From: Deefgea rivuli DSM 18356
GTDB taxonomy: Bacteria; Pseudomonadota; Gammaproteobacteria; Burkholderiales; Chitinibacteraceae
Length of the DNA stretch: 64,000 bases
Assembly (NCBI RefSeq): GCF_000620145.1
Contig: NZ_JHVM01000003.1
Span: forward strand, 186,001 to 250,000
Reading direction: 5' to 3'
In this document: positions 2,630 through 19,730 of the stretch, piece by piece
Layout: each line of letters starts with the position of its first letter
Position numbering within the stretch: position 1 is the stretch's first letter
Notes under the pieces: generated by a model
Database searches by the model: none
Seen by the model: the letters and a program-made list of their open reading frames with translations, nothing else
Told to the model about the DNA's origin: nothing
Translations under genes and position numbers: made by a program

Positions 2630-3694
2630 TTACAACATTGCTTTAATAATGATGAATTTAGCGTTCTGTGCCGCAATATCAACCCTGCGAAACCAACGCT
2701 TCAAATCGGACCGATAATTTAAATGCCGATTTGCAATCACCCATAATTCACTCGCACTACCCATACAGTTTTTCGCCTGAGCAAATAGGCTCAATGCAAC
2801 ATCAGTGGTGACCGTATTTTGTTGATGGAAGGGCGGGTTAATCAAAATCAAATCAAACACTTGCGAAACACCCTCAAGTCCGTCGCCATGCAAAATTTCG
2901 GGATTCGATGCCGGAAAATTAAACGCAAAACTTAAGCGAGCAGACTCGACCGCTGCCGCAGATTCATCCACCAAAAATAACTTCGCCTCAGGGTTCTGCT
3001 GATGATAAGCCAGCGACAACAATCCGTTTCCACACCCCACATCGGCAACATTAGCAACACTGGGGAGTAACTTGAAATTTTCAATAAAAAATCGCGAACC
3101 CACATCAAATTTCTGCTCAGCAAAAACACCTGCCACATTTTGCAAAGTCAACTGCAGCTCCGGCATCGGCAACGAATGCACCTCATTGCCAGCCGAGCGA
3201 GGCAGCAGCAACGCTTTGTACATGCGCGCCTTACGCTGCGTCGGCAGATATTCCACCTCAGCACAACAAGATTTAATCAGGTCCAGATGGCCACTACTTA
3301 CGTGTTTTTGCATACCAGAAAAATAAATCATCACCGGATACACAAGTTGATTGGCAATTTGCAGCAATTGAGCACTCAGCAAGGATAACGACTTGGGTAA
3401 TTTCACTAAAACGACATCAATCGACTGCCCAGCATACAACACGGGCTGCACGCGTGAATTGAGTTCAACAGCCCTGAGCGAGCACCACGAGTCATTGATA
3501 TGAAACGCCACCGAATCGCAAGCCAGACTTGCACACGCCAAGGCACCAAACGCATCATTTACCAGCAGGGCATTGCTTGCTGGTTGAATGAACTCAGTCA
3601 AATACTCGTCCGCAGCATCCCAAGCCTGCAAATCTTTGGCATGCTTCATCGGATAGCGTTGCAAATTGCACGAAGAAAAATCGATTGTTGTCAT
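2630..3694 (-). CDS. rlmG: 23S rRNA (guanine1835-N2)-methyltransferase RlmG
   Basis: RlmG uses S-adenosylmethionine to methylate G1835 of 23S rRNA. The N-terminus (LQRYP, LQAWDAADEYL, NDAFGALA) matches the degenerate N-terminal methyltransferase-like domain of E. coli RlmG. The C-terminal catalytic half has the SAM-binding DVGCGNGLLSL, the acidic VDESAAAV and the N2-guanine motif NPPFHQQ, then IANRHLNY. The frame stays open to a TTG at 3775, but homology begins at the ATG at 3692-3694, giving 354 aa. That start is chosen although no strong Shine-Dalgarno is visible. The gene is divergent from adhE and shares its promoter region. Confidence 0.92.
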   Translation of the reverse strand: MTTIDFSSCNLQRYPMKHAKDLQAWDAADEYLTEFIQPASNALLVNDAFGALACASLACDSVAFHINDSWCSLRAVELNSRVQPVLYAGQSIDVVLVKLPKSLSLLSAQLLQIANQLVYPVMIYFSGMQKHVSSGHLDLIKSCCAEVEYLPTQRKARMYKALLLPRSAGNEVHSLPMPELQLTLQNVAGVFAEQKFDVGSRFFIENFKLLPSVANVADVGCGNGLLSLAYHQQNPEAKLFLVDESAAAVESARLSFAFNFPASNPEILHGDGLEGVSQVFDLILINPPFHQQNTVTTDVALSLFAQAKNCMGSASELWVIANRHLNYRSDLKRWFRRVDIAAQNAKFIIIKAML

Positions 3695-17730: not shown

Positions 17731-18228
17731 TTACTTGGTTTTAAACTTGTAAAGCACGGTTTTTCCCGCCTCAACCGAACCACTTGCTACACTTTCCAGC
17801 GCAGTAAATTGATCCGCATTAGAGAGAACCACTGGGCTAATGATTGAAGCAGCATTTGCAGCCAAGTAATCTAAGTCCAGCTCCAGAACCGGATCACCCG
17901 CTTTAACGCGACTACCTTGCTGCGCTAAGCGAGTAAAACCTTGACCGCCGAGTTTTACCGTTTCAATACCAATGTGCACTATTAATTCTGCGCCCGAATC
18001 GGTCACCAAAGCAAAGGCGTGATTGGTGTTGAAAATCTTTACCAATTCACCATCGCAAGGTGCAACGACCAGCTTACCCGTTGGGCGGATACCAACACCT
18101 TCACCAACCGCTTTGCTCGCAAATGCGGCATCAGGCACATCTTCAATCGCCACCACTTCGCCCGTTACTGGCGCAAAGAGAATGGTTTCATTACCACTAA
18201 TAGAAACTACAGGTGCCACGCTTGCCAC
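17731..18228 (-). CDS. nagE: PTS EIIA(Glc)-type domain, probably the C-terminal part of a frameshifted NagE
   Basis: This 165-aa segment is an EIIA of the glucose superfamily, which passes phosphate from HPr to EIIB. Active-site His is in IVHIGIETV and the second conserved His in NTNHAFALVT. The only possible start is a GTG at 18226-18228 without a Shine-Dalgarno. The same frame reads on upstream as an Ala/Pro linker (VAEVAPAAP) right into the A-AAA-AAG site at 18255-18261. In E. coli NagE the EIIC, EIIB and EIIA domains are one 648-aa chain. I infer that EIIA is made by -1 frameshifting as a 666-aa fusion, or that a base is missing from the A run. Confidence 0.85.
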   Translation of the reverse strand: MASVAPVVSISGNETILFAPVTGEVVAIEDVPDAAFASKAVGEGVGIRPTGKLVVAPCDGELVKIFNTNHAFALVTDSGAELIVHIGIETVKLGGQGFTRLAQQGSRVKAGDPVLELDLDYLAANAASIISPVVLSNADQFTALESVASGSVEAGKTVLYKFKTK

Positions 18229-18261
18229 CGGAGCAGCAGGCGCAACTTCCGCTACTTTTTT
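18222..18261 (-). promoter_or_regulatory. Candidate -1 ribosomal frameshift signal in the PTS gene
   Basis: On the minus strand the EIICB frame ends GCA-GCA-AAA-AAG-TAG. A-AAA-AAG (18261 down to 18255) is the heptamer used by E. coli dnaX, and a stop codon follows at once. Slipping back one base continues GTA-GCG-GAA into the EIIA frame. Nine bases downstream, TTGCGCC (18245-18239) can pair with GGTGGCAA (18229-18222) with one bulge. Pairing was judged by eye. Confidence 0.6.
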
Positions 18262-19730
18262 GCTGCAGTACCCAATTGAGCGCGCAATGAATCGGCGATC
18301 AATTCAGCTTTTGGTCCAACGATGATTTGAACGCTTTGCTTGTTCAATTTAATCACGCCACTAGCGCCAAGGCGTTTTGCAGCAGCTTCATCGACCAAGT
18401 CAGCATCATTCACAGACAAACGCAAACGAGTGATACACGCATCGACGTTAGTCACATTGCTTGGGCCGCCCACAACAGCAACATAAGCTTGTGCCAATTC
18501 GGCAGTGCTACCGGTTGCAGCTGCAACTGGCGCAGCAGTACCTACTTCATCAATCAGATCATCTTCACGACCTGGTGTTTTAAGATTGAACATCTTAATC
18601 ACGGCGGTAAAACCGAAGTAGTAAATGGCAAAGAACACCAAGCCTTGTGGGATCAACATATACCATTTAACCGCGAATGGATTAGTCGACGACAAGGCCA
18701 TATCGATGGCACCCGCACTAAATGCAAAACCTGAAATCCATTGCATTGAAGCCGCGATATACACCGACAAACCAGTGAGGAAGGCATGGAATACATACAA
18801 CAACGGCGCTACAAACATGAATGAGAATTCAAGTGGTTCAGTCACGCCGGTAACAAATGAAGTCACTGCCGCTGCAAACATGATAGAGCCAACCATTGCT
18901 TTTTTAGCTGGTTTAGCTGCTTGGTAGATCGCTAGCGCTGCGCCAGGCAAACCAAACATCATGATTGGGAAGAAACCAGCTTGATACATCCCTGTTACAC
19001 CCAGAGTACCTTTGGCAATATCACGACCTTGGAAAATACCAATGTCGTTAATACCAGCAAGGTCAAACCAGAACACAGAGTTCAGAGCGTGATGCAAACC
19101 AACTGGAATCAATAAGCGATTGAAGAAGGCATAAATACCAGCACCTGCAGCGCCCATATCTTTGATAGAAACACCAAAGTTAAATAGCGCGTTGTACACA
19201 ACAGGCCAGATTTCTAGCAAGATAAACGACACGACAATCATTGCGACCGATGTAATGATCGGAACACAACGACGACCACTGAAGAAAGCAAGTGCTTTGT
19301 GCAACTCAACTTGGCTAAAGCGATTGTAAATTTCACCGGCAATAACACCCGTCAAAATACCAACGAAAGCATTGTCAATTTTGCCAAAGGCTTTTGGCAC
19401 TTGATCCAATGCAATGCCTTGAATTTGTGACACCGCGCCAGGAGACAATAATGTCGTCACAACCAAAAAGCCAACCAAGCCTGCTAAAGCGGCTGCGCCA
19501 TCTTTATCTTTAGAAACACCGTAAGCCACACCAACCGCAAACAGAATTGGCATTTTATCAATAATCGCAGCACCGGCTTTGATTAAAAACGCGGCCAATT
19601 GGCTATTTGCACCCCAACCTGTTGGGTCAATCGCATAGCCCACACCCAACATAATTGCAGCGGCCGGTAGTACAGCCACCGGCACCATGAGCGAACGCCC
19701 AATTTTTTGTAGATAACCTAAAATATTCAC
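18252..19730 (-). CDS. nagE: N-acetylglucosamine-type PTS transporter, EIICB part
   Basis: The EIIC domain (about residues 1-375) is the membrane channel that imports and phosphorylates the sugar. It has MVPVAVLPAAAIMLGVGYAIDP, HHALNSVFWFD, FPIMMFGLPGAALAIY and FVTGVTEPLEFSF, as in GlcNAc permeases. The EIIB domain (about residues 405-490) has its phosphorylated Cys in NVDACITRLRL. The start is GTG, preceded by AAGGGGA about 7 bases upstream. The frame ends at TAG 18252-18254, immediately after a -1 slippery heptamer that leads into EIIA. GlcNAc is the likely substrate by similarity to NagE; glucose is less likely. No nagA or nagB is adjacent. Confidence 0.9.
   Translation of the reverse strand: MNILGYLQKIGRSLMVPVAVLPAAAIMLGVGYAIDPTGWGANSQLAAFLIKAGAAIIDKMPILFAVGVAYGVSKDKDGAAALAGLVGFLVVTTLLSPGAVSQIQGIALDQVPKAFGKIDNAFVGILTGVIAGEIYNRFSQVELHKALAFFSGRRCVPIITSVAMIVVSFILLEIWPVVYNALFNFGVSIKDMGAAGAGIYAFFNRLLIPVGLHHALNSVFWFDLAGINDIGIFQGRDIAKGTLGVTGMYQAGFFPIMMFGLPGAALAIYQAAKPAKKAMVGSIMFAAAVTSFVTGVTEPLEFSFMFVAPLLYVFHAFLTGLSVYIAASMQWISGFAFSAGAIDMALSSTNPFAVKWYMLIPQGLVFFAIYYFGFTAVIKMFNLKTPGREDDLIDEVGTAAPVAAATGSTAELAQAYVAVVGGPSNVTNVDACITRLRLSVNDADLVDEAAAKRLGASGVIKLNKQSVQIIVGPKAELIADSLRAQLGTAAKK

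Follow-up and report, generated by a model that had tools for sequence, protein, structure and literature searches.

Candidate programmed -1 frameshifting joins the EIICB and EIIA parts of nagE in three genera of Chitinibacteraceae

The N-acetylglucosamine permease NagE of Escherichia coli is one EIICBA chain. We analysed the corresponding gene, nagE, in a stretch of 64,000 nucleotides from Deefgea rivuli DSM 18356 (contig NZ_JHVM01000003.1; this whole stretch is called the window below). The window codes for the domains of E. coli-type NagE in the same order. However, the frame is uninterrupted in E. coli-type NagE, as it is in 18 close orthologues from the same family, whereas in the window the EIICB part ends at a stop codon directly behind a slippery heptamer, and EIIA is encoded in the -1 frame. 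Comparison with related genomes strongly supports a real, conserved frameshift, very probably a programmed one. Programmed -1 frameshifting is an established mechanism, of which nagE is a new case within the reach of our literature search.

In IS3-family insertion sequences (IS), the -1 shift yields a longer fusion. Their transposase genes (IS911-type), like nagE, contain a slippery heptamer followed by a hairpin or pseudoknot (PMC4066793). Unlike them, nagE is a cellular transporter gene, standing beside dapA in most of the loci described below and containing domains of the phosphotransferase system (PTS) only. A heptamer A_AAA_AAG followed at 5-8 nt by a hairpin is familiar from the ribosomal frameshift sites of dnaX and of insertion sequences (PMC4066793, PMC3711429). 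E. coli dnaX and nagE share the heptamer, the downstream hairpin and a pair of products with a common N-terminal part (PMC3711429). However, the shift in dnaX leads to the shorter product, whereas in nagE it would lead to the longer one, with a whole domain added, and the Shine-Dalgarno-like stimulator of E. coli dnaX has no clear counterpart in nagE. The dnaX open reading frames (ORFs) of the window's genus (567-590 codons, L127-L133) contain no AAAAAAG, AAAAAAA or TTTTTTC in 7/7 genomes, and thus provide no internal control for A_AAA_AAG.

Two other described cases are closer in function. The E. coli copA gene is, like nagE, a cellular transporter gene with two products made by -1 slippage, but the copA shift produces a putative chaperone of 70 aa (PMC5009743), whereas the nagE shift would extend the permease by EIIA. 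A -1 frameshift has been suggested, as here, for gutR-gutM of the Pediococcus sorbitol cluster; these are not permease genes, and the suggestion rests on one TAA stop and a weak structure (PMC5723342). PMC2627896 mentions programmed frameshifting in general and for luxN only. No phosphotransferase entry was found in the main text of PMC3711429 or in the first 300,000 characters of PMC5009743. Among the papers listed in a search of the open-licence literature, mostly at the level of titles and abstract openings, there was no frameshift in nagE or in another PTS permease gene; supplementary GeneTack clusters may hold one. The author of the first-pass annotation of this DNA, a model working from the sequence alone, knew of no such mechanism for nagE.

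The EIICB frame of the window's gene ends with GCA-AAA-AAG-TAG (minus strand; heptamer at 18261-18255, stop at 18254-18252). From the heptamer to position 17731 the -1 frame is free of stop codons and runs through an Ala/Pro-rich linker into a complete EIIA domain. This arrangement had been described in the first-pass annotation and was reproduced here, as were the lengths of 492 aa for EIICB and 666 aa for EIICBA fused through the -1 frame. The EIICB product scores 648.7 bits with TIGR01998 (PTS-II-BC-nag), above the cut-off of 553.2 for an N-acetylglucosamine EIIBC, and contains the EIIC (PF02378) and EIIB (PF00367) domains. The full IIABC equivalog model NF007608 (cut-off 1010 bits) gives 456.2 and 204.9 bits, each frame being scored apart and not as a joined chain. 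No transposase domains, which would mark an IS element, were observed in the domain scan of both nagE frames; it gave PTS domains only. At the point where the frames cross, A_AAA_AAG stands in the zero-frame phase and has the form X_XXY_YYZ of programmed -1 frameshift sites. The string AAAAAAGTAR occurs once in the window, with 0.53 occurrences expected by chance, so the slip site alone is not improbable, and it is its conservation that raises it above chance. In a search of positions 18050-18400 for Rfam frameshift elements the sole match at E <= 5 was sR16, with 14 bits against a gathering score of 70. Coordinates are collected in the table.

Table. Features of the nagE locus in the window
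Feature	Positions	Strand	Evidence and remarks
nagE zero frame from a GTG to TAG, coding for EIICB (492 aa)	18252..19730	-	TIGR01998, PF02378, PF00367
Slippery heptamer A_AAA_AAG in phase with the EIICB frame	18255..18261	-	AAAAAAG identical in 15/15 genomes of three genera
Zero-frame stop TAG abutting the heptamer	18252..18254	-	TAA in 11/15 genes, TAG in 4/15
-1 frame, Lys-Lys-Val-Ala/Pro linker and EIIA, putatively entered by -1 slippage	17731..18261	-	PF00358, 5.4e-45
Predicted downstream stimulatory hairpin	18210..18251, main helix 18246-18215	-	Folding, consensus and pair counts; weak in the window's gene taken alone

The nagE region was compared in 7 genomes of the window's genus (g1) and in the 43 genomes of the family, genes with at least 70% identity being taken as close orthologues (G and L numbers below denote genomes and loci, g numbers genera). 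All 7 genomes of g1 have two PF00358 domains, one of which lies in an open frame of 186-190 aa behind nagE, and all 7 have C-AAAAAAG-TA[AG] at the nagE junction. The alignment of close relatives proposed as a check in the first-pass annotation extends this pattern: AAAAAAG, an immediate TAA or TAG, and EIIA in the -1 frame are present in 15/15 genomes of g1 (7), g4 (6) and g5 (2), where the EIICB frame has 497-526 codons. The relatives thus have six A's, and not the seven that the first-pass annotation had named as a sign of an in-frame fusion. In these 15 genes the -1 frame is open for just 2-16 codons upstream of the heptamer, and therefore the frames must cross at the heptamer.

A single frame of 667-736 codons was observed in 18/18 close orthologues of g2, g3, g6, g9 and g10. 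The junctions of 15 of them were read and have neither a break nor a slippery stop, the other three being classed by frame length only. Plain fused relatives had been named in the first-pass annotation as a case that would speak against frameshifting; they do exist, but all of them belong to other genera. In seven remoter homologues from the family, at about 50% identity, the frame is likewise single and long (660-695 codons) and includes EIIA. We also classed named relatives from outside this set, taking the best 80 of 579. Thirty of these are fused; 49 (from Vibrio, Aeromonas and others) have EIICB but lack an EIIA motif within 900 nt behind the stop, which is the form that the zero frame of nagE would give; and one is frameshifted. 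The latter, from Chitinilyticum aquatile (L046), is apparently the same sequence as G017 of g5, with an equal junction, and was not counted as a sixteenth case; g5 is accordingly Chitinilyticum.

EIICB and EIIA pieces in different frames at one place were found in the family only, both in a search of the order (300 genomes of the larger group; matches at E <= 1e-60, at most 4 candidates per genome) and in one of the class (369 genomes; E <= 1e-30, at most 3 candidates); because of these thresholds and limits, weaker cases outside the family may be missed. A scan of viral_contigs gave two relatives. Six or seven consecutive A's occur in the linker region of two fused g9 genes (L029, L033). A second nagE-like EIICB gene of 494-495 codons, with about 62% identity and no EIIA behind it, was observed in G012 and G016 of g4 (L136, L137).

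The junction is conserved beyond what the protein would require. In the codon alignment of the 15 frameshift genes the longest invariant nucleotide run is AAAAAAGTA (9 nt; the next longest has 8), that is, the heptamer AAAAAAG and the two following bases TA. With Met and Trp excluded, the codon is identical in all 15 genes in 19 of the 372 columns with an invariant residue, and these include the junction Lys, Lys and Val. Among the 29 invariant Val columns, the junction GTA alone has one codon in all genes; this -1-frame codon overlaps the zero-frame stop and preserves TAA or TAG. The next -1-frame codon starts with A or G in 15/15 genes, although it encodes different residues (Ala, Met, Thr, Ile, Val, Ser). 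Genes of g5 seldom use AAA for Lys (4/24 and 2/22 of the other Lys codons counted), yet they have it at the slip site. By these measures the heptamer and the frame arrangement are conserved across species beyond protein constraint. The EIIA part was compared in ten of the frameshift species. Synonymous differences are near saturation (proportion of synonymous differences pS 0.44-0.92), and the ratio of nonsynonymous to synonymous rates, dN/dS, is 0.016-0.136 in the pairs where it is computable; judged from these values, EIIA is under strong purifying selection.

The 60 nt following the heptamer have folding energies from -17.6 to -33.8 kcal/mol across the 15 frameshift genes. The usual distance between heptamer and structure is 5-8 nt (PMC4066793). 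Here the predicted structures start after 2 nt (outer helix) or 8 nt (main helix) in g1, after 4-5 nt in g4 and after 4-7 nt in g5; in the first-pass annotation a bulged stem-loop had been drawn 9 nt downstream in the window's gene. We redrew the -1-frame codons of a 50-nt segment synonymously (1000 shuffles; 300 for the fused controls). In 13/15 frameshift genes at most 14/1000 shuffles fold as well as the natural sequence, and z averages about -3.3 over the whole set of 15. At the matching place of 15 fused controls, z ranges from -1.2 to +2.25, and at least 35/300 shuffles are as good.

The pairing pattern was considered for g1 and g4 separately. The 18 named pairs of g1, counted without the innermost RNAalifold pair, which is broken or gapped in 2/7 genes, are paired in all 6 distinct rows, with single changes that keep a wobble pair and one double change. 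In g4, where the pairs were taken from a 14-pair structure that we named ourselves and that differs slightly from that of RNAalifold, 91.7% of cells pair, and two pairs have G-C to A-U double changes (4 cells; 0/500 shuffles reach this). Slid versions of the g1 and g4 structures pair in 25-59% of cells, a comparison that favours the named structures because they were derived from the same sequences. The synonymous test indicates selection on the predicted hairpin at the RNA level in most of the 15 genes, and only weakly so in the window's own. A conserved hairpin about 5-9 nt downstream is clear in 13/15 genes, weak in the window's gene, and no better than synonymous shuffles in G017.

We consider it highly likely that the two frames of nagE are joined by programmed -1 ribosomal frameshifting like that of dnaX and IS elements, as was proposed in the first-pass annotation and as the 15/15 junctions, the codon identity and the selection on the hairpin in most genes suggest. 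Ribosomes reading GCA-AAA-AAG before the stop codon would be held up by the hairpin shortly downstream. Some of them would slip, with both tRNA-Lys moving one base back onto AAA-AAA, and would continue through the Ala/Pro linker into EIIA, while the others would terminate directly. One mRNA would thus yield two permeases, EIICB lacking EIIA and the complete EIICBA, both presumably in useful amounts.

Several observations weigh against this interpretation. The bulged hairpin of the window's gene (-20 kcal/mol, z -1.33) is weak on its own, being equalled by 18/200 dinucleotide shuffles. In the synonymous test the same gene is among the weaker ones (70/1000 shuffles as good, z -1.53), and the hairpin of G017 is no better than shuffles (293/1000, z -0.5). 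A ranking of the linker against other segments of its own gene gives strong folding in most frameshift genes. However, the linkers of five of the 15 fused controls (L032, L035, L037, L038 and L044) also rank 2 to 9 of 660, so that this ranking fails to separate the two sets, and the synonymous test alone does so. The pair counts in g1 do not exceed the shuffle control (243/500), because the g1 changes pair either way. The sequences GGAG, AGGA and GAGG, which could act as an upstream Shine-Dalgarno-like stimulator, an optional feature, are absent from the 30 nt before the heptamer in 15/15 genes; GGGG or GGTG is found 7-11 nt before the heptamer in 8/15, the window's gene not being among them. 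Three tRNA-Lys genes with anticodons UUU, CUU and UUU stand in a row in the window's genome (G000:C10, L147 1501-1761; the tRNA scan covered 19/25 loci from a similarity search with E. coli tRNA-Lys). E. coli is not known to have a CUU form of tRNA-Lys, and from work on E. coli dnaX tRNA-Lys(CUU) should lower slippage at AAG, so the frameshift efficiency cannot be transferred from E. coli dnaX. Finally, some genes have possible starts from which free EIIA could also be made: TAATG, with the -1-frame ATG overlapping the stop, in G002, G003 and G004, and a linker GTG 27-42 nt past the heptamer start in ten others.

These starts are the basis of the main rival explanation, in which nagE is a pair of split, coupled genes and EIIA is a separate protein, translated by termination-reinitiation at overlapping stop and start codons or from an internal start. 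Besides TAATG and the linker GTGs, GAGG 11 nt ahead of the GTG in G013 and G014 agrees with it. However, no start is common to the 15 genes: G005 lacks ATG, GTG and TTG throughout the initial 90 nt of its -1 frame, and the earliest -1-frame start of G001 is a GTG that coincides with residue 1 of the EIIA core. None of GGAG, AGGA and GAGG occurs in the 18 nt before the candidate starts except in G013 and G014. The first-pass annotation had given the window's EIIA a single GTG start with no Shine-Dalgarno sequence; the latter part holds, but there are two linker GTGs, at 18228 and 18219, both inside the hairpin. Moreover, coupling would not require AAAAAAG or the hairpin, which are both conserved, and the linker is similar to the one in the fused relatives. 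As the starts are not shared, an own EIIA start cannot be the general answer and was rejected as such; it may add free EIIA in some species. We regard separate translation of EIIA as improbable.

The slippage itself could be transcriptional, some mRNAs with an extra A giving the fusion; the first-pass annotation had allowed for either the ribosome or RNA polymerase on the A run. The run is indeed homopolymeric, but six A's are short: in a large share of genomes selection against slippage becomes visible at a length of nine (PMC1088944), and the runs cited as exploited for transcriptional slippage have more than 7 A's (PMC3711429). Nor would polymerase slippage need the hairpin or the exact A6G phase. 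Of the two possibilities the ribosomal one is thus supported, with ribosomes rather than RNA polymerase likely to be the ones that slip, and the transcriptional one is very unlikely. A still smaller chance is left to a sequencing error or a decaying pseudogene that lost a base from the A run, the alternative offered in the first-pass annotation. Homopolymers are error-prone and fused orthologues do exist, but identical six A's and a stop are found in 15 genomes of three genera, and EIIA is under strong purifying selection. Sequencing error is excluded because AAAAAAG and the stop are kept in 15/15 genomes, and this candidate is refuted by that conservation.

The genomic neighbourhood and the gene tree bear on the origin of the frameshifted form. 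In a start-motif search with 1.5 kb flanks, dapA adjoins nagE in 13/15 frameshift loci (it was missed in G011 and G018), and longer stretches of G000, G006, G012, G017 and L046 agree with this neighbourhood. The fused nagE of G007 (g2; L044) also stands beside dapA. The start-motif search of 15 fused loci found dapA beside no other fused nagE, but it is not a full test for the fused loci, as it missed G007 too. Fused and frameshifted nagE can thus share a locus; descent from a fused gene is the simpler interpretation.

The EIICB gene tree was built from 41 rows, 30 from the family and 11 chosen from the 80 named relatives. The 15 frameshift genes form one group together with the EIICB-only L050 and the fused L045 and L047; the basal branching is open. 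The frameshift label needs two changes on this tree, and 0/500 shuffles are as low. The frameshift genes thus appear grouped, and the EIICB tree does not settle whether there was a single gain or one gain and one loss. L050 is a locus of a Propionivibrio metagenome-assembled genome (MAG) with a nagE-like gene from position 3001; it encodes EIICB only, with no EIIA behind it, and groups with the Chitinilyticum genes. Horizontal transfer or a MAG binning error are possible explanations. The tree (L015-L030 for nagE of g1, g4 and g5) also departs from the genera, G001 being placed apart from the rest of g1 although its linker is g1-like, so that the EIICB parts may have recombined within nagE.

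The predicted short product resembles the EIICB-only relatives and would need IIA in trans. In G000 an IIA-HPr-EI protein of 859 aa is followed by a PtsG-like EIICB of 576 aa without its own IIA. A second PF00358 domain is present outside nagE in 15/15 frameshift genomes; 14 genomes have it in open frames of 848-873 aa, and G015 has it in a broken frame of 460 aa. This domain could thus serve the short EIICB, which would take phosphate from IIA-HPr-EI or from the EIIA of neighbouring full-length copies. The long EIICBA would be self-sufficient and may also lend its EIIA to others. Both forms would be used in some ratio, with the split between self-sufficient and EIIA-dependent transport that the first-pass annotation proposed as a possible outcome. 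One tentative and rather doubtful possibility is that the frameshift rate acts as a set-point, possibly regulated, for the EIIA-bearing share, that mixed EIICB/EIICBA dimers share phosphate with the glucose PTS, and that competition of tRNA-Lys(UUU), which can slip, and tRNA-Lys(CUU) at AAG tunes it. In that case no PTS permease under the control of recoding would have been described before, as far as our literature search reaches. The frame break in the IIA-HPr-EI gene of G015 (L172, G015:C1:2040500-2046500, near 1989) lies in the EI part and is not shared by G013; in contrast to the nagE junction, it looks like an error or a recent mutation.

Conserved cases of frameshifting in cellular genes are few, and in nagE it would be translation that decides whether a PTS domain is present. 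The gene has the comparative signature of such a case: three genera with the frameshifted form, RNA-level selection on the hairpin in most genes, and fused orthologues in further genera of the same family. Annotation may present genes of this kind as frameshifted pseudogenes or split them into two. If the interpretation is true, one gene would give a PTS permease with and without its own EIIA. It would also be a natural case in which to ask why EIIA is present in some NagE relatives and missing from others, such as those of Vibrio and Aeromonas.

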